From positions 62,001 through 126,000 of the forward strand of contig JAJYBB010000001.1 of NCBI GenBank assembly GCA_021779195.1: 64,000 nt of DNA, in the 5' to 3' direction. Of this stretch, positions 2,678 to 26,454 are shown piece by piece. This DNA is from Bacteroidota bacterium (GTDB lineage: Bacteria; Bacteroidota; Bacteroidia; Bacteroidales; Paludibacteraceae). Both the position numbers and the translations under genes were made by a program. Position 1 is the stretch's first letter. Every line of letters begins with the position of its first letter. The notes below the pieces were generated by a model. It did no database searches and had not been told where the DNA came from. It saw nothing but the letters and a program-made list of their open reading frames with translations.

Positions 2678-2775
2678 AGTAGACAAGTAAACAAGTAAAC
2701 GAGTAGACTGCTAAACGTCTTGACTTGGACTGTATTAATAAGTGGTGTACTCGTTTATTTGTTAACTGGTCTACT
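2678..2775. repeat. Inverted repeat between nifE and nifN
   Basis: Left AGTAGACAAGTAAACAAGTAAACGAGTAGAC (2678-2708); right GTACTCGTTTATTTGTTAACTGGTCTACT (2747-2775); about 3 mismatches over ~28 bp. Confidence 0.8.
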
Positions 2776-4102
2776 GTTTCGTAAACTTCCACACCGGGCT
2801 CATGGCAGTTGCATAAATTTCTTTAGCGAAGTTCAACATGCCTTCGTATCCTGCCAATGGTTCTTTGCGTTCGTGATTGTGGTCGCAGAACCCGAGTCCG
2901 ATTTTATGAGCAATGGGGCGTTCTTTTACACCTCCGATAAAAATATCAGCCTGCTTTTCTTTCACGAAATGCGAAAGCTCCACCGGATTCGAGTCGTCAA
3001 CGATGATGGTTCCTTCGTCGCAAAGCTGTTTTATCAATTCATAATCTTCGGTTGTTCCGGTTTGCGAACCCACAATCACCGATTGAACGCCAATCAATCG
3101 TAGTGCTTTTACCAACGAAATGGCTTTAAATGCTCCGCCAACGTAAATGGCGGCTTTTTTCCCGGTAAGTTTTTCTTTGTACCAGGCCAGTTGTGGAATG
3201 AGTTTTGTAAATTCTTCTTTCACCAACTGACGGGCTTTCTCCATCATGTCGTCATCTTTGAAAAACCGGGCTACATCGTAAAGTGCATCACTCATATCTT
3301 CAATGCCGAAATACGAAACCCGCATCGAAGGAATTCCATATTCATCTTTCATCATCTTAGCCAGATAGTTCATGGAACCTGAGCATTGAACCACATTTAG
3401 CGCGGCATTGTGTGCATTGCAAATGTCGTCTACACGTCCATCGCCGGTAATGGTGGCGTTGACATGCACGCCCATTTTTTTGTAGTATTCCAATAGTATC
3501 CAAAGTTCGCCGGCCAGGTTGAAATCGCCCAGTATATTGATACTTTTAGCAGGTGTGAAAGGTTTGCTTTTGGTTCCCACCAGTTTGAAAATGGATTCGC
3601 AAGCTACTTTGTACCCGTCCTTTTTGGAACCCTGAAATCCGGGTGCCTGTACAGGTATAATTGGAATACCTTTTTCTTTTTCTACTGTACGGCAAATTTG
3701 TTCTACATCATCGCCAATAACCCCTACAATACAGGTTGTATAAATAAAGGCAGCTTTGGGTTTATGCAGGTCGATAAGTTCTATAATGGAAGCATAGAGT
3801 TTCTTTTCTCCGCCAAAAATCACATCCCGTTCCTGCAAATCGGTACAATAACTCAGTCGGTGTAATTCGGGTCCCGACGAGAGTGAACCCCGTATGTCCC
3901 AGGTATAGGCAGCACACCCAATTGGTCCGTGAATAATATGAAGGGCATCCACAATGGGGTAAAGCACCACCCGCGATCCGCAAAATACACAGGCACGTTG
4001 GCTAACACTTCCCGCCAGACTGGCTTTGTTGCAATCAATCGTTCGCTCGTTGGCTCCTGCAATTGAAACTTGCTTTTGTCTATCATCTAATATATGTCCC
4101 AT
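2771..4102 (-). CDS. nifE: Nitrogenase iron-molybdenum cofactor biosynthesis protein NifE
   Basis: RACVFCGSRVVLYPIVDALHIIHGPIGCAAYTWDIRG; start moved from the TTG at 4117 to the ATG at 4102 because GGAGGAGAAGG lies just upstream. Confidence 0.94.
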   Translation of the reverse strand: MGHILDDRQKQVSIAGANERTIDCNKASLAGSVSQRACVFCGSRVVLYPIVDALHIIHGPIGCAAYTWDIRGSLSSGPELHRLSYCTDLQERDVIFGGEKKLYASIIELIDLHKPKAAFIYTTCIVGVIGDDVEQICRTVEKEKGIPIIPVQAPGFQGSKKDGYKVACESIFKLVGTKSKPFTPAKSINILGDFNLAGELWILLEYYKKMGVHVNATITGDGRVDDICNAHNAALNVVQCSGSMNYLAKMMKDEYGIPSMRVSYFGIEDMSDALYDVARFFKDDDMMEKARQLVKEEFTKLIPQLAWYKEKLTGKKAAIYVGGAFKAISLVKALRLIGVQSVIVGSQTGTTEDYELIKQLCDEGTIIVDDSNPVELSHFVKEKQADIFIGGVKERPIAHKIGLGFCDHNHERKEPLAGYEGMLNFAKEIYATAMSPVWKFTKQ

Positions 4103-4115
4103 AGCCTTCTCCTCC
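4103..4115 (-). promoter_or_regulatory. Shine-Dalgarno of nifE
   Basis: Minus strand GGAGGAGAAGGCT directly before ATG. Confidence 0.75.
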
Positions 4116-4162
4116 AATTAAGAATTTATAATTCAAAATTCAAAATTCACATTCACCTTTAA

Positions 4163-4183
4163 TCATTTATCGTGCCATTAACA
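4163..4183 (-). promoter_or_regulatory. Element A: sigma-54-like nifE promoter
   Basis: Minus strand TGTTAATGGCACGATAAATGA, identical over 21 bp to 9587-9607; TGGCACG matches the sigma-54 -24 element, the -12 region (ATGA) is degenerate. Confidence 0.65.
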
Positions 4184-4310: not shown

Positions 4311-4350
4311 CATACATTTAAGTAGGAAATTATACTTAAAATGTAGGAAA
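4311..4350. promoter_or_regulatory. Element B: candidate upstream activator site for nifE
   Basis: CATACATTTAAGTAGGAAATTATACTTAAAATGTAGGAAA; closely matches 9736-9775; two GTAGG repeats 21 bp apart. Confidence 0.65.
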
Positions 4351-4560
4351 GGTAAGGGAGTCAAAGTTGACAGGGAGATATATGGAAGTAGTGTTTTCTG
4401 GAGATAGAGGTAGTTTGCTCTTATATAAAATTACGACTCCACTAAAAAGTGAAGCCGTAAATGTTGATTTTCCCAATGGCAACTTGAGAGAGAAAAATAG
4501 AAGTATTGAATAAAAGCCATTCCGACTTATGTCATGCGTCGATGCGACTAAATATTGTAT

Positions 4561-4626
4561 AAAAACCCAAGGACGTAGACTGACAGAATGCTAACTAACA
4601 ACATAATAACGTCCCCGGGTTTTTTA
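4561..4626. terminator. Hairpin/terminator between nifK and nifE
   Basis: AAACCC-AGGACGT ... ACGTCC-CGGGTTTTTT directly after the nifK stop. Confidence 0.6.
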
Positions 4627-4627
4627 A

Positions 4628-6007
4628 TTACAATTGGAATTCAACCTTTTCTTCCAAACAAGTGCGATCGTAATGTTCCAAAAATGCATCCATAATTTGT
4701 TTTACTAAATTAGCCCCACCATCGTAACCAGTTTTTGCAAAGTAGTTATGTCCGGGACGGTCGGCAATCGGGAATCCGAAGCGAACAAAAGGTGTATTTT
4801 CGTCGCGTGCAATGTATTTACCGTATGTATTTCCGATTAATAAATCCACACCTTCTTGTTTAATCCATTGGTGCATACGGAACATATCGGCCAATTCACC
4901 GCTTTTGAATTTTGCTTCCGGAATATCTTTCAGTAACTCGGGCATTTTAGTATCGAAATACTTACTTGGAGTTCCGGTAACAATATAAACCGGTTTCATA
5001 TCCATGCTTACTAAAAACTCTACTAACGGAATCAACGTATCAGGGTCTCCCCACAGTGCAACTCGTTTTCCGTACAAGTATTTCGAACTATCCGAAATCA
5101 GGTCGATTAAACGTCCTCGCTCATCGTTCAGGCTTTGAGGAATCGGAACATTAGCGTGGCGGCTGAGCGACATTAAGAATCGGTCGGTAGCTTTAAATCC
5201 AATGGGGATATCCAACATCTCGAATTTTACTTTACATTTATTGTCGAGTTTGATACAAGCATCTTCGGTGCACGAATGTCCAAGGCCTAATGTAAATTTA
5301 CTGTCGCCTGTCAATTTCATGTCTTCGATGGTTGTTCCGCCTGTTGGATACATTTTGTAATGTCCATCCAGTGGAGCATCCAACACGTCGGTCATATCGG
5401 GAAACATAATTGTACGTGCTTCCATAACCGTTGTCAATCGTTTGATTTCACGCATATCCGAAGGTTCCATCCATCCGGCAGCGATATTGATAACGTTACG
5501 TTTCTTTGGTGTTGCCGTTGAGAAAAACTTTACAAAAGCAGCAACCTGATTGGAATATCCCGTTACGTGTGTTCCAACATAACTTGGGGTATTGCAATGG
5601 ATTACGTATTTTCCTTCGGGAACAAGTCCATCTTCGTTGGCTTTTGATACGATTTGAACCAGGTCATCACCAATTGTTTCCGACAAACAGGTGGTGTGTA
5701 CGGCTATAACTTCGGGTTTATACACCGTGAACATGGTGTCGATAGCCTGAACTAAGTTGGCTGAACCTCCAAATACGGAAGAACCTTCAGAAAATGAGCT
5801 GGTACCGGCCATGATTGGTTCGCGGAAGTGGCGCGATAAAGCACTTCGGTGATAAGAGCAACACCCTTGTGAACCGTGGCTATGTGGCAGGCATCCGTGG
5901 ATACCCAATGCTGCAAACATTGCGCCTACAGGTTGGCAAGTTTTGGCCGGGTTAATGGTCAGTGCCTTCCTGTCTATTTCAAATGCAGTGGTATGTCTGA
6001 GTAACAT
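4628..6007 (-). CDS. nifK: Nitrogenase molybdenum-iron protein beta chain
   Basis: INPAKTCQPVGAMFAALGIHGCLPHSHGSQGCCSYHRSALSRHFREP; short N-terminus as in clostridial-type NifK. Confidence 0.97.
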   Translation of the reverse strand: MLLRHTTAFEIDRKALTINPAKTCQPVGAMFAALGIHGCLPHSHGSQGCCSYHRSALSRHFREPIMAGTSSFSEGSSVFGGSANLVQAIDTMFTVYKPEVIAVHTTCLSETIGDDLVQIVSKANEDGLVPEGKYVIHCNTPSYVGTHVTGYSNQVAAFVKFFSTATPKKRNVINIAAGWMEPSDMREIKRLTTVMEARTIMFPDMTDVLDAPLDGHYKMYPTGGTTIEDMKLTGDSKFTLGLGHSCTEDACIKLDNKCKVKFEMLDIPIGFKATDRFLMSLSRHANVPIPQSLNDERGRLIDLISDSSKYLYGKRVALWGDPDTLIPLVEFLVSMDMKPVYIVTGTPSKYFDTKMPELLKDIPEAKFKSGELADMFRMHQWIKQEGVDLLIGNTYGKYIARDENTPFVRFGFPIADRPGHNYFAKTGYDGGANLVKQIMDAFLEHYDRTCLEEKVEFQL

Positions 6008-8698: not shown

Positions 8699-9559
<861 letters not shown>

Positions 9560-9586: not shown

Positions 9587-9607
9587 TCATTTATCGTGCC
9601 ATTAACA
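9587..9607 (-). promoter_or_regulatory. Element A: sigma-54-like nifH promoter
   Basis: Minus strand TGTTAATGGCACGATAAATGA; predicted +1 near 9575, ~50 nt before nifH ATG; no TAnnTTTG box seen here. Confidence 0.65.
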
Positions 9608-9735
9608 TTTAGTGCTCAATTTTCATACGGTTTATGATCCTGTAATGTGCTGATTACAATTGGAATAAAAAATATTTTATAATGTATGAATAAAGGTACA
9701 GCAGGGAATTTGCACGAGTGGAAAAAGTAAAGAAT

Positions 9736-9775
9736 CCTACATTCATGTAGGGAATTATACTTAAAAGGTAGGAAA
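9736..9775. promoter_or_regulatory. Element B: candidate upstream activator site for nifH
   Basis: CCTACATTCATGTAGGGAATTATACTTAAAAGGTAGGAAA; 7-bp dyad CCTACAT-TC-ATGTAGG plus direct GTAGG repeat. Confidence 0.65.
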
Positions 9776-9781
9776 AGAATG

Positions 9782-10267
9782 TTATTTAAATCGGTCATCG
9801 GAGCGTAGTTTTTCCAAGGACAGATTCTTATTTTTCTCCAGCCATCCGATTTCTACGTTTTCTCGATTATCGTATCGTGGATAGAATGGTTTTATATCAA
9901 TCAGCGGAGTTCCATCGAGCATATCTACTTGTTCGATATATACAATATTTCCTTCAATACCCAGCAATCTTACGGTTGAAATGCCAATGGCATTTGGTCT
10001 TTTCGGGGCTTTAGTTGCAAAAATACCATGAGCTTCGATATCCATAAATGGAACTACAGTAAGTTCATAACCAGTTATTTTGTGAAAATGATAAATCAGC
10101 GTTATGTGTGAGAATCCCTCCAGATCTTTTAATCCGGCTACAAATTCCGGTAAAAGTTCGATATAACCTTTTACGCCTTCGGCAGCAATAGGTTGAATTG
10201 GCATATTCTTTACATCTTTATGGGGAGTAAAGATGGTTCCGATAGGTTTTATTGTTATATTTTCCAT
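9782..10267 (-). CDS. TsaA/TrmO-like (YaeB family) SAM-dependent methyltransferase
   Basis: IKPIGTIFTPHKD..., FSHITLIYHFHK, APKRPNAIGISTVRLLGIEG. Confidence 0.85.
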   Translation of the reverse strand: MENITIKPIGTIFTPHKDVKNMPIQPIAAEGVKGYIELLPEFVAGLKDLEGFSHITLIYHFHKITGYELTVVPFMDIEAHGIFATKAPKRPNAIGISTVRLLGIEGNIVYIEQVDMLDGTPLIDIKPFYPRYDNRENVEIGWLEKNKNLSLEKLRSDDRFK

Positions 10268-10519: not shown

Positions 10520-11248
10520 TTATTTTGATTGAAATATTTGGGAATAATACTCCATTTTTAATTTGTATTCTGATGATTTTTGGTTGAAGACATCTACAGG
10601 TTTACCTTCGCTTATAACAGTTCCGTTTTTAAGTAGAATAACTGTTGATGCCAGATGAAGAACTTCCTGCAGATCGTGGCTAACCATGAGTGTAACTGTG
10701 TTAAGCAGGTCGTGCGCTTTGCGTATTTCGTGTTGAAGCGACAGTCTCATTTCAAAATCGAGCGCCGAAAGTGGCTCGTCGAGAAGTAGTACGTTGGGTT
10801 TGGCAGCTAATGCCCGTGCCAATGCTACCCGTTGTTTTTGTCCACCGGAGAGTTTGTCGGGATGTTGGTTTTTCAAAACTCCTAAATCGAATAGGTCCAA
10901 CAATTTATCTACTTCTACTTTATCCTTTTCTTTTTGAGCAAAGCTGATGTTCTTCTCCACGGTCATGTTGGGGAAAAGAGCATAATTCTGAAACATATAC
11001 CCTACGTTCCGTTGTTGCGGCGGTAGATTTATCTTCTTTTCGGAATCAAACCAAACTGTATTATTAAACTCAATCCGCCCTTTATCCGGTTTTGTAAGTC
11101 CGGCTAATATACGCAATAACGTTGTTTTCCCGGCACCTGAATGGCCAAACAGACAAAGTAATTCGTTATCCTTAATTTCGGTGCAAATTTCTAAATTTGT
11201 CTTGCCTCCGGAGGTTAGCATTTCGCGCTGAACATTAATTTTCAACAT
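10520..11248 (-). CDS. modC: Molybdate ABC transporter ATP-binding protein
   Basis: GHSGAGKTTLLRILAGL Walker A, LSGGQKQRVALARAL; start placed at internal ATG (MLKINVQ) to avoid overlap with modB. Confidence 0.9.
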   Translation of the reverse strand: MLKINVQREMLTSGGKTNLEICTEIKDNELLCLFGHSGAGKTTLLRILAGLTKPDKGRIEFNNTVWFDSEKKINLPPQQRNVGYMFQNYALFPNMTVEKNISFAQKEKDKVEVDKLLDLFDLGVLKNQHPDKLSGGQKQRVALARALAAKPNVLLLDEPLSALDFEMRLSLQHEIRKAHDLLNTVTLMVSHDLQEVLHLASTVILLKNGTVISEGKPVDVFNQKSSEYKLKMEYYSQIFQSK

Positions 11249-11249
11249 A

Positions 11250-11945
11250 TCAAAAAAGAATTTTTTTCTTGCCATTTATACTGTAAATCAGCGTAAGAAT
11301 AAGCAATGAAACGATAAATAAAATAAATGAATACTGATTGGCAGTATGATAATTCAGTGCCTGAACCTCATCAAATATAGCAATGGATGCTACCCTTGTT
11401 TCACCCTGTATGTTACCACCAACCATAATTACTACACCAAATTCACCAATACAATGTGCAAAAGTCATAGCAATGGCGGTGATGATTGATGGAATCATAT
11501 TTGGAATCAATACCCGAAAAAATGTAGTGAATTCGGACTTGCCCAACGTGTAAGCAGTTTCACGAAAGCTTTTGGGAATACTGGTCAGTCCGTTTTGCAG
11601 GGGTTGAATCATAAACGGCAAACTGAAAAGTACACTTGCAATCAACACACCTGCGAAACTAAATGCTAACCAGGTATTGAAATGCTCTGCCATAAACCGC
11701 CCAAATGCATTTTGCGGACTGTAAGCAACCAACATATAAAATCCCAATACGGTTGGAGGCAATACCAATGGCATGCTGAACAGTGCTTCCAATAAAGCTT
11801 TTAAAGGAAAGCGTTTGTAAGCGAGCACGTATGCGATGGGAAATCCTGTTATAAAAAGTATAGCAGTGGTCCAACCAGCCAGTCTGCCGGTGAGCGAAAG
11901 TGTGTTTAAAAAATCTTGATCCATAATTTTAATTGGGTTCCGCAA
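11250..11945 (-). CDS. modB: Molybdate ABC transporter permease
   Basis: LPLVLPPTVLGFYML-type sequence; IGEFGVVIMVGGNIQGET. Confidence 0.94.
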   Translation of the reverse strand: MRNPIKIMDQDFLNTLSLTGRLAGWTTAILFITGFPIAYVLAYKRFPLKALLEALFSMPLVLPPTVLGFYMLVAYSPQNAFGRFMAEHFNTWLAFSFAGVLIASVLFSLPFMIQPLQNGLTSIPKSFRETAYTLGKSEFTTFFRVLIPNMIPSIITAIAMTFAHCIGEFGVVIMVGGNIQGETRVASIAIFDEVQALNYHTANQYSFILFIVSLLILTLIYSINGKKKILF

Positions 11946-11980
11946 TTTCCGAATCGCGATTATTACTATCTATTTTATCC

Positions 11981-12013
11981 AACTTTTCCAAAGTTTAGAA
12001 CTTTCGAAAAGTT
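11981..12013. repeat. Hairpin between modA and modB
   Basis: AACTTTTCCAAAGTT-TAG-AACTTTCGAAAAGTT, 14/15 complementary. Confidence 0.7.
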
Positions 12014-12026
12014 CATCAACTACTAG

Positions 12027-12782
12027 CTATTTACTGCCAACTAATCCATATCCCCACTTCTCCCAAATTTCTTTTGTTGCCGACGAAAGAACAAATTTCT
12101 TGAATTTGGCTGCTTCGGTATTCAACACTGGAGTTTTAATTAGGATACAAGCTTGCTCAATTGGTTTGTAAAGTGATTGAGGAATAATGTAATAACTCCC
12201 TTTTCCTGCCATTTCGGGAGCCAAAGCCAGCGAAAGGGCAATAAAACCAATCTCGGCATTTCCGGTAAAGGCAAATTGTGCTGTTTGTGAAATATCGTTG
12301 CCAAAAGCAATTTTCGATTTTAATCCATCATATAGTTTCTGGCTTTTCAGCAACTCTAAAGCCCGTTCGCCATAAGGTGCGGTTTCGGGATTGGCAATGG
12401 CTATTTTTTTTATTGTTGTACTTTTTAGTATTTCCAATCCTTTTTTACCAAACTGTAAGGTGCTGCTGTACATAACTAATTTCCCAAAAGCGTAGGTTGT
12501 CATTGATCCGGTGGTAAGTCCTTTTTCTTTCAACTTCAAGGGAAACTCATTGTCGGCAGCCATAAAAAAATCGAACGAAGCACCATTTTGAATTTGTTGG
12601 ATAAGCATTCCTGAACTTCCAAAAGTCAGATTCACTTTAGCTTTAGGATTTTGCTTTACATAAACTGTTTTAATTTCTTCCAATACATAACGTAAGTTGG
12701 CTGCTGCGGCTACATTTACTTTTTGAGCCGAGATGGTTATCGCCGCGAGCAATATTGCTAATGAAATTGTTATTCGTTTCAT
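12027..12782 (-). CDS. modA: Molybdate ABC transporter substrate-binding protein
   Basis: VAAAANLRYVLEEIKTVYVKQNPKAKVNLTFGSSGMLIQQIQNGASFDFFMAAD. Confidence 0.95.
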   Translation of the reverse strand: MKRITISLAILLAAITISAQKVNVAAAANLRYVLEEIKTVYVKQNPKAKVNLTFGSSGMLIQQIQNGASFDFFMAADNEFPLKLKEKGLTTGSMTTYAFGKLVMYSSTLQFGKKGLEILKSTTIKKIAIANPETAPYGERALELLKSQKLYDGLKSKIAFGNDISQTAQFAFTGNAEIGFIALSLALAPEMAGKGSYYIIPQSLYKPIEQACILIKTPVLNTEAAKFKKFVLSSATKEIWEKWGYGLVGSK

Positions 12783-12818
12783 ATTTATTGATATTTATAA
12801 TTTTGAATTATGGATTGT

Positions 12819-14111
12819 TTATAGAAATTTTGGTTTGATAGAGAACATTATATACGCCCATTGCGGAGTTCGGACTGCAGGTATAATTGCTGAAGTTATT
12901 ATGTTTTTAGCAATAAGGGTATTATTCGTGTTAAAATATGTACACCAACCACCTTGAACGGATGTCCAGGGATTTAGTTTGTAATTTACAATTAAATCAA
13001 ATTCAGAACCCAACTCTTTGCCAAAGGCAATTCCTTTGCTGTTTTTCCCCGAAAATTCAGAGTTAAAGAGATGATACGTTCCAGCTAAACTTAAATTTTC
13101 CGCAATTTTACCTGTCACTCCAACGTAATAGTCCAGTAATCCCTGCGTTAAAGCCACATCCCAATAATCCATTAATCCATAGAAAGTATGGTCGCTACCA
13201 TATAATTTCTTGAAATTCGATTGAGTTCCATCAGTTGTATTATTATCGCCCGAAACATAGTCGGTTCCGATATTTGCAGAAATTATATTCGAAAATTTAT
13301 AATTAATTTTCATTGCCAGCATTTTCCCGTTCATTTTCGACCCCATATTATTCTTCTCTGCCTGAAAATAAGCTGTTGCCAATGCGCTTACAGGCAAAGA
13401 TTCATTAGAATACTTTAAATTTCCACCAAAAGTATATGCATGGTACATGTTGATTTTAAGATAGTTTCCACCATTTTTTGTCTTTACTGTGTCTTGAACC
13501 CCTTCATCTACACCGAGAAGACTAAGATTTATGCCATCAGCAATATTCTTAGTTAACCATACATACCCCATATATCGATAATTTGATATTGGACTATAGT
13601 AAGTTTCGGAAGAAATAATTGAATTGTTGTTATAGGCCAACCCTAAATGTCCTTGAAAATCGTTCACACAGTATTTTATTAATGCTACATCGTGCGAAGT
13701 TCCCGTATTACTCCAATCTGAGGCTGAAAAAAGACGACCGTCGTCGTACTGCAACGCCTGACGGCCAATTTTGAACGATAAGCCCGGTGCTATAAGCATT
13801 TGTGCCCATGCTTCAAAAATTCCGGTTGTAGCAACGCTTGATGAATTTGGGGTTTGTCCGTATGTTCTGGAATCCTGCAATGTAATTTGTGTGCTTAAAG
13901 CAGCACTTGTAAAGGTCATTCCAATACGGGTACGTTGAATTGCGGAAACTCCGGGATCATTGGTTGTGAGCAGTGGTTTTGTAAATCCATCACGATCTTC
14001 GATTCGAGGACGAATTTCTCCATCGATTACTACTGTTTGAGCAACTGAAATTACTGAGCTAAAGCTCAACATAAAAACGAGTAAATACTTTTGTAAATGA
14101 ACTACTTTCAT
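12819..14111 (-). CDS. Outer-membrane porin, alginate-export (AlgE)-like beta-barrel
   Basis: Signal peptide; GEIRPRIEDRDGF, RTRIGMTF, FKIGRQALQYDDGRLF; beta-strand pattern. Confidence 0.75.
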   Translation of the reverse strand: MKVVHLQKYLLVFMLSFSSVISVAQTVVIDGEIRPRIEDRDGFTKPLLTTNDPGVSAIQRTRIGMTFTSAALSTQITLQDSRTYGQTPNSSSVATTGIFEAWAQMLIAPGLSFKIGRQALQYDDGRLFSASDWSNTGTSHDVALIKYCVNDFQGHLGLAYNNNSIISSETYYSPISNYRYMGYVWLTKNIADGINLSLLGVDEGVQDTVKTKNGGNYLKINMYHAYTFGGNLKYSNESLPVSALATAYFQAEKNNMGSKMNGKMLAMKINYKFSNIISANIGTDYVSGDNNTTDGTQSNFKKLYGSDHTFYGLMDYWDVALTQGLLDYYVGVTGKIAENLSLAGTYHLFNSEFSGKNSKGIAFGKELGSEFDLIVNYKLNPWTSVQGGWCTYFNTNNTLIAKNIITSAIIPAVRTPQWAYIMFSIKPKFL

Positions 14112-14164
14112 ATTGTTTAATTTTTTTCGTTATAACCTAAAAAGAACAACGCTGAGTAAATTTT

Positions 14165-14194
14165 TAGCGATATTCATAAATAAGAATATCGCTA
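14165..14194. promoter_or_regulatory. Perfect 11-bp palindrome, candidate ModE-type operator
   Basis: TAGCGATATTC-ATAAATAA-GAATATCGCTA between modE-like gene and porin; no adjacent T-run on either strand. Confidence 0.5.
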
Positions 14195-14196
14195 TT

Positions 14197-14550
14197 CTAA
14201 AAAAAACAGCTTTCTAATTCGCTGTCACTTTGAGCAAGAAACTGAATGATGTCTGCCACTTTTTTCTCATACGTCCGGATAAGTTTCATGCCATATGGGC
14301 TTATTTTGCAACCACCACCATCTTTTCCACCTTTTTGCCTGATAATTATTGGCACCGGCGACAAATGATTAAGTTTATCGAGAATATGCCACGCATGTTG
14401 ATAGGACATTTTCAGGTTTTTAGCTGCGGCGTGTATAGATCCGTCAATCGCAACTTGTTTTAAGAGCCGGATTTGCATTGAGCCAAGAAATAATTCACCT
14501 TCGCGATAGAATGAAAGTTCGGCAGATATGTTAAAAACCTGATGGTACAT
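14197..14550 (-). CDS. ModE-type N-terminal winged-HTH regulator (no molbindin domain)
   Basis: GSMQIRLLKQVAIDGSIHAAAKNLKMSYQHAWHILDKLN...GGKDGGGCKISPYG. Confidence 0.88.
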   Translation of the reverse strand: MYHQVFNISAELSFYREGELFLGSMQIRLLKQVAIDGSIHAAAKNLKMSYQHAWHILDKLNHLSPVPIIIRQKGGKDGGGCKISPYGMKLIRTYEKKVADIIQFLAQSDSELESCFF

Positions 14551-25002: not shown

Positions 25003-26454
25003 ATGTTAAAGCAACAACTACAACAAAAACTACAACAAAAACTATCACCTGCTCAGATTCAGGTCATTAAAATGCTCGAAGTACCGGCTTTGGAGCTGGA
25101 AGAGCGCATTCGGCAGGAATTAGAAGAAAACCCTGCATTGGAAGAAGGACGCGAAAGTGATGAAGAAGCTGAAGAATTAGACAATCAAAATCAAGAAGAT
25201 GAAGGACAGAATGATGAATTTGATTTAGAAGAATATGTAGCCGATGATGATATACCTGATTATAGATTAAAAATTAACAATGCTTCGAAAGACGATAAAC
25301 ACGAAGATATTCCGTTTTCGGCAGGGATGACTTTCCACGAATTTCTTATTGATCAAGTAGGATTGTTGCAAATCAGTCAAAAAGAACGATTGCTTGTAGA
25401 ATATGTTATCGGGAATATTGACGACGAAGGATACCTGCGCCGAACCCCCGAAGCCATGGTAGATGATATCGTGTTTTATGCCGGTGTAGAAACTACTGAT
25501 CAGGAAATGGAGCAAGCCGTTCAATATGTCCGAACTTTAGATCCACCCGGTGTTGGAGCTTTTGATTTACAGGATTGTCTGAAACTTCAGCTCGAACGCA
25601 AAGATAATACGAAAACTATAAAATCGGCTCAACTGATTATTTCGGATTATTTCGACGAATTTTCGAAAAAACATTTCGATAAAATTCAACGTGGATTAAG
25701 TATCGATGACGAAACATTGAAAAAAGTTATGGCTGAAATCATCCATCTGAATCCAAAACCCGGAAACGCATGGAGTGGAAATATCCTTGAGAAATCAATG
25801 TCAACGATCGTTCCTGATTTTATTCTGGAAAACATTGAAGGGCAATTAATTGTTTCTCTGAACAACGCCAATATCCCCGATCTGAGAGTAAGCAGCACCT
25901 ACAACGAAATGTTTCAGGATTATACGGGCAACAAAAAAAATCAGAGCCGAGAAATGAAAGATGCAGTGATGTTTGTAAAACAAAAAATTGATTCTGCACG
26001 CTGGTTTATCGATGCCATCAAACAAAGGCAACAAACATTGCTTACTACCATGATAGCCATTGTCAATTTTCAAAGCGAATATTTCATTGAAGGAGACGAC
26101 ACATATATTAAACCAATGATTCTTAAAGATATAGCTGATATAACGGGATATGATATTTCAACTATCTCGCGGGTAAGCAACAGCAAATATATTCAAACTG
26201 AGTTCGGCATATTTCCCGTAAAATATTTCTTTTCGGAATCTATGACCAACGATGTTGGTGAAGAAGTGTCTACTCGTGAAATCAAAAAAATATTGCAGGA
26301 TTGCGTTGAGAATGAGAATAAACAGAAACCGTTGAACGATGATGCGTTGGTTGATGTTTTAAAACAAAAAGGGTACCTTATTGCCCGCCGTACCGTAGCT
26401 AAATATCGCGAACAACTGAATATCCCTGTTGCAAGAATGCGTAAAGAAATTTAG
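25003..26454 (+). CDS. rpoN: RNA polymerase sigma-54 factor
   Basis: MLKQQLQQKLQQKLSPAQIQVIKMLEVPALELEERI; C-terminal RpoN box ARRTVAKYRE. Confidence 0.97.
   Translation: MLKQQLQQKLQQKLSPAQIQVIKMLEVPALELEERIRQELEENPALEEGRESDEEAEELDNQNQEDEGQNDEFDLEEYVADDDIPDYRLKINNASKDDKHEDIPFSAGMTFHEFLIDQVGLLQISQKERLLVEYVIGNIDDEGYLRRTPEAMVDDIVFYAGVETTDQEMEQAVQYVRTLDPPGVGAFDLQDCLKLQLERKDNTKTIKSAQLIISDYFDEFSKKHFDKIQRGLSIDDETLKKVMAEIIHLNPKPGNAWSGNILEKSMSTIVPDFILENIEGQLIVSLNNANIPDLRVSSTYNEMFQDYTGNKKNQSREMKDAVMFVKQKIDSARWFIDAIKQRQQTLLTTMIAIVNFQSEYFIEGDDTYIKPMILKDIADITGYDISTISRVSNSKYIQTEFGIFPVKYFFSESMTNDVGEEVSTREIKKILQDCVENENKQKPLNDDALVDVLKQKGYLIARRTVAKYREQLNIPVARMRKEI

Follow-up and report, generated by a model that had tools for sequence, protein, structure and literature searches.

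In R. capsulatus, the experimentally derived binding consensus of the sigma-54 activator AnfA is TAC-N6-GTA; AnfA recognizes two such sites at anfH, and full expression requires both (PMC7294313). The A. vinelandii regulator VnfA1 recognizes GT(T/A)C-N6-GTAC, usually with two motifs per promoter, and its binding has been proposed to be cooperative (PMC9542535). The upstream activator sequence of NifA is TGT-N10-ACA (as cited in PMC7294313), and in D. vulgaris control of a nitrogenase operon has been proposed for DVUA0143, a one-component activator whose N-terminus resembles that of AnfA/VnfA (PMC4641369). A survey of the nif genes of Bacteroidetes notes a nifA near the cluster and gives no sites or promoters (PMC4356463), while our literature search on TAC-N6-GTA, which covered open-access papers, found no paper on Bacteroidota. 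The switching-on of nitrogenase in diazotrophic Bacteroidota is largely undescribed in the literature searched.

The window considered here, a stretch of 64,000 nucleotides analysed as a whole, belongs to a Bacteroidales genome resembling Paludibacter; among named NifH matches, those of Paludibacter MAGs are the nearest (97 %). The order of genes on its minus strand is modABC, trmO, nifH, two glnB-like genes, nifD, nifK, nifE, nifN and nifB, with one copy of a sequence element, designated B, between trmO and nifH and another between nifK and nifE. The nifH gene (8699..9523, minus strand; TIGR01287, 452 bits) is the first of nifH-glnB-glnB-nifD-nifK, and nifE (2771..4117, minus strand; TIGR01283, 622 bits), the start codon of which is probably the ATG at 4102, is the first of nifE-nifN-nifB. 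Because a strong terminator-like hairpin follows nifK, between nifHDK and nifENB (4555..4630, minus strand; -25.9 kcal/mol, z -5.3), nifE probably heads an operon of its own. The window also contains rpoN (25003..26454, plus strand; TIGR02395, 409 bits, over the cut-off), which encodes sigma-54, the sigma factor needed by activators of the kind discussed below. A molybdate uptake cluster (10520-14550), consisting of modA, modB, modC and genes for an outer-membrane protein and a short ModE-like HTH protein, is located directly upstream of trmO and nifH. The trmO gene (9782-10267), encoding a tRNA t6A37 methyltransferase, lies between the mod genes and nifH in the same orientation and ends approximately 10 bp before element B, a placement common to the related locus L001, not to L002.

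Element B occupies positions 9736-9772 upstream of nifH, and its copy occupies 4311-4347 upstream of nifE. The 29-bp core, GTAGGRAATTATACTTAAAANGTAGGAAA, occurs twice in the window and in none of 100 shuffles; in the whole 3.12-Mb genome, which was scanned by pattern search, it likewise has two copies, each upstream of a nif operon. Since both copies are associated with nif, the notion that B is part of a longer dispersed repeat with copies unrelated to nif, which the first-pass annotation had put forward as a check on its own reading, was rejected. That annotation had described a 7-bp dyad, CCTACAT-TC-ATGTAGG, followed by a third GTAGG half-site, with the GTAGG repeats 21 bp apart. The dyad is found as described at 9736-9751 and the repeat distance is seen at both loci (9747/9768 and 4322/4343), but the dyad of the nifE copy (CATACAT-TT-AAGTAGG) retains only five of the seven pairs, and what is kept between the two copies is TAC-N6-GTA rather than the full 7-bp dyad. 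The third GTAGG proved to be not a lone half-site but the end of a second dyad, TAC-N7-GTA (TACTTAAAAGGTA at nifH and TACTTAAAATGTA at nifE). The centre, AATTATACTTAAAA, does consist of the same letters in both copies; because it forms this second dyad together with the third GTAGG, it is mostly half of the second site. Its proposed role as a specific core was not supported, as most of the centre is retained at nifH of the relatives L001 and L002, not in L003 or in other genera, and its conservation does not extend beyond close Paludibacter relatives.

Each copy of element B comprises two predicted enhancer sites on the minus strand, namely a proximal TAC-N6-GTA and a distal variant, TAC-N7-GTA. 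The proximal site of nifH (9738..9749; TACATTCATGTA on the plus strand) is palindromic, flanked by CC..GG and located 149 bp upstream of the -24 GG, and the distal site (9758..9770; the sequence given above is that of the plus strand) is conserved in L001 and L002. The corresponding sites of nifE are found at 4313..4324 (TACATTTAAGTA on the plus strand, 148 bp upstream of the -24 GG) and at 4333..4345 (again given above as read on the plus strand). The dyad centres within each element are approximately 20.5 bp apart, which corresponds to two helical turns. The window, L001 and L002 together have six nifH and nifE promoters, and five of these retain TAC-N7-GTA. Both operons have a sigma-54-type promoter with the sequence TGGCACGATAAATGA, at 9587..9601 for nifH and at 4163..4177 for nifE, each on the minus strand. 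This promoter has the -24 GG and the -12 G at the correct spacing, but GA replaces GC at -12; the -12 dinucleotide is GC in some relatives (e.g. L036, L077 and G296), and the same -24 box occupies the corresponding position in almost every Bacteroidota nifH locus examined. In the window as in L001 and L002, the TGGCAC box of either operon is 147-149 bp from the enhancer, a distance that falls within the geometry of sigma-54 enhancers, which lie roughly 80-200 bp upstream of -24/-12 on a fixed helix face.

The conservation of the dyad was assessed upstream of a de-replicated set of 19 nifH genes from Bacteroidota by counting every inverted repeat of the form XYZ-N(0-15)-Z'Y'X' against dinucleotide shuffles. 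TAC-N6-GTA ranked first among the 1,024 dyads, being present at 18 of the 19 loci, with 0.81 expected (p ~4e-24, from a binomial calculation that ignores the common descent among loci, which is reflected in part of this conservation). In total, the exact dyad is present in 31 of 32 loci, the sole exception being L008, which has two sites with one mismatch each. The position weight matrix approximates CCTACA-(A/T)4-TGTAGG, and across many families the TAC and GTA letters are conserved while the remaining stem letters vary. When 247 genomes of this order were searched to assemble a held-out set, all 13 further activator-bearing genomes proved to have TAC-N6-GTA. Two genomes with nifH but no activator lack the dyad at that gene; they provide a weak negative control, because the nifH-like gene they carry is more distant and its position differs. 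The NifA site, TGT-N10-ACA, does not occur within 500 bp upstream of nifH in the window and is absent from nearly all Bacteroidota loci examined; as an identity for B, it was therefore rejected. Since a single TAC-N6-GTA is not rare (20 in 64 kb), the prediction requires the flanks, the pairing and the promoter distance to be taken into account, and the combination of CTAC-N6-GTA with TGGCAC 120-150 bp away is found genome-wide only at nifH and nifE. When further regulon members were sought in the same genome, the extra matches obtained with the TAC motif alone were about as frequent as those of reversed-pattern controls, i.e. at chance level.

TAC-N6-GTA also ranked first in 56 nifH loci from outside Bacteroidota, which come from Desulfobacterota, Spirochaetes and others (e.g. 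L033, L040, L046, L055 and L059), being present in 22 of them (1.04 expected). In these loci, the dyads are often paired at approximately 23, 30-32 or 41 bp and the recognition helix of the activator is more varied; outside Bacteroidota, the recognition-helix class and the motif match only partly.

Among the related Bacteroidota loci, a second site, counted where it scored at least 4 bits, was present in 22, in which the site-site spacings were 19, 20, 30 (nine loci), 31 (three loci), 40, 100 (four loci) and 101 bp (two loci), with an outlier at 129 bp. These spacings are multiples of approximately 10 bp in 21 of the 22 loci, with a resultant length of 0.94 at a period of 10.0 bp, and the distances from site to -24 GG gave R = 0.56, a value reached by 0 of 5,000 uniform draws; these phasing figures are indicative rather than exact, because many loci are related, a few positions were entered twice and the period was picked post hoc. 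The spacings fit an activator that would be bound on one face of the helix. Many relatives carry two N6 sites, the second site in the window being N7.

Only three strong sigma-54 interaction proteins are encoded in the genome, of which one, a response regulator, gave no match to an HTH and another is without a sensor domain at its N-terminus. The remaining protein, P0001, has a GAF-AAA+-HTH architecture and approximately 516 residues; its gene, at G000:C19:56541-58094, is located beside the nif cluster, approximately 4 kb before the start of the window. Its GAF, sigma-54 interaction AAA+ and Fis-type HTH domains (PF01590, PF00158 and PF02954, respectively) each score over the cut-off. Compared with the NifA equivalog TIGR01817, P0001 reaches 498.8 bits, under the cut-off of 528.85, in a match that ends before the HTH, and its closest solved structure is 9qq6, a Nif-specific regulatory protein of 528 residues. 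A relative of P0001 (44-90 % identity) is present in 21 of 21 Bacteroidota nif genomes tested, and a recognition helix near ITERMMGIRIKKY and an N-terminal C-X6-CYG are common to most of these relatives; P0001 itself has the N-terminal C-X6-CYG, and the linker that precedes its HTH contains no cysteine. Among the 247 genomes of the order, the activator gene was found in 18 and nifH in 20, the 18 being a subset of the 20, and 14 of these 18 genomes have both genes on the same contig within approximately 20 kb. P0001 is likely to be the activator acting at B. In the locus L013 (genome G012, a Cyclobacteriaceae MAG), the activator gene beside nifH appears to be split into two overlapping frames, through either a frameshift or an assembly error.

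The locus resembles the AnfA system in having TAC-N6-GTA as the first site of both elements, a pair of sites, of which the second is here a TAC-N7-GTA variant, upstream of a sigma-54-type promoter and a GAF-AAA+-HTH activator with N-terminal cysteines. It differs in the N7 of the distal site, in the CC/GG flanks and A/T centre and in its target, which is the Mo-nitrogenase cluster of a member of the Bacteroidota. No AnfD over the cut-off was found in this genome; an alternative nitrogenase was accordingly rejected as the real target, and an enhancer type known from alternative nitrogenases would here serve the Mo-nitrogenase. Two dyads, N6, a GTA core and similar spacing are shared with the VnfA1 sites, but the outer letters are G/C in VnfA1 sites and C/G here, and the VnfA1 targets are vnf and related genes. 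In AnfA/VnfA, the cysteine motif is in or just before the GAF domain and not in the HTH linker, and its placement in P0001 is the same, the comparison being one of the placement of the motif. An HTH search for AnfA/VnfA relatives on plasmids returned weak general matches only. Like the NifA site, B would act as an enhancer at nif promoters and serve a GAF-AAA+-HTH activator that works with RpoN, but TGT-N10-ACA is missing from the enhancer region. The likeness to DVUA0143 lies in the proposed control of nitrogenase outside the classical proteobacterial models (PMC4641369). In the plasmid record of D. vulgaris RCH1, no TAC-N6-GTA was found upstream of nifH, and the best activator match on this plasmid, which may be a protein other than DVUA0143, has a different recognition helix (LTPRQMGYRIRQW).

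Element B is very probably the enhancer of an AnfA/VnfA-like, NifA-annotated activator, which would drive the Mo-nitrogenase operons via RpoN. As an upstream activator sequence, B would consist of two tandem TAC-N6/7-GTA dyads, two helical turns apart, both of which could be occupied by dimers of a GAF-AAA+-HTH protein of the NifA/AnfA/VnfA class, putatively P0001, placed side by side on one DNA face and possibly binding cooperatively. The bound dimers may build an AAA+ ring, which would loop to RNA polymerase-sigma-54 at the TGGCAC promoter approximately 148 bp away, and the promoters of nifH(glnB2)DK and nifENB would be opened together. The GAF domain may sense nitrogen via PII proteins, or oxygen or redox state via the N-terminal cysteines. 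The proposal of a multimeric activator in the first-pass annotation is retained here, without its specific core, in the form of helically phased activator sites, and is well supported by the sigma-54 enhancer geometry, the phased spacings at 21 of 22 loci and the nif-linked activator gene. Counted against the enhancer reading are the N7 of the second site, the GA at -12 and the frequent occurrence of TAC-N6-GTA alone.

Many regulators bind dyads, and B might instead be an operator for a repressor or for a nitrogen, oxygen or molybdenum regulator independent of sigma-54 (ModE-, Fnr- or GlnR-like) that happens to act on nif, a reading favoured by the short ModE-like HTH protein encoded in the nearby mod cluster (14197-14550). 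This is improbable, as a fixed, phased distance to the sigma-54 box is maintained over many families, B matches the AnfA consensus and the sites lie 100-230 bp upstream, which is too distant for an ordinary repressor. To our knowledge, the motif of B is unlike the ModE, Fnr or GlnR consensus.

The dyad could also function in RNA, as the trmO transcription terminator or another hairpin, since positions 9735-9752, just past the trmO stop, are called as a stem of 6-7 bp followed by a weak T tail. We regard this as very unlikely: in the nifE copy, which lies behind a different gene, the 7-bp dyad is broken, L002 carries the element without trmO upstream, and the retention of TAC and GTA among variable stem letters is not accompanied by compensatory whole-stem changes across relatives. 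Hardly any probability attaches to the last alternative, a recent duplication of the promoter region or a mobile repeat without a function of its own, by which the likeness of the copies would be explained. The 29-bp cores are indeed nearly identical and the promoter boxes are shared too, but the genome has two copies only, and the sequence separating enhancer from promoter differs whereas its length remains 147-149 bp. Moreover, TAC/GTA and not the remainder is what is conserved across many families, and phased TAC-N6-GTA sites occur in distant genera.

With the enhancer, the promoter boxes, the activator gene and the spacing rule named, the regulon under the preferred enhancer reading becomes directly testable and the nif promoters of the phylum become recognizable. 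These observations suggest that enhancers of the AnfA/VnfA style are not restricted to alternative nitrogenase systems. A broader proposal, which we advance tentatively and would sooner doubt than assert, is that in Bacteroidota and some nif-bearing anaerobes of other phyla the Mo-nitrogenase may be run by an AnfA/VnfA-type activator-enhancer pair, with TAC-N6-GTA arrays at strictly helical spacings, and not by the NifA TGT-N10-ACA pair, and that an inverted sigma-54 element with a -24 box only, which is phased and close to the enhancer in a third of Bacteroidota loci, may be an additional, undescribed working part.

This inverted sigma-54 -24-like element, TTTTGGCACG, which is located on the strand opposite to nifH and lacks the -12 G, is absent in the window and occurs in 11 of 32 Bacteroidota nifH upstream regions (L007, L011, L027, L031, L037, L072, G130, G229, G145, G243 and G181), compared with a mean of 1.2 and a maximum of 5 in 300 shuffles. 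It is positioned approximately 143-190 bp upstream of nifH in most carriers and further upstream in L007; from the forward -24 box, most copies are offset by approximately 88-91 or 99-102 bp, two values that differ by one helical turn.
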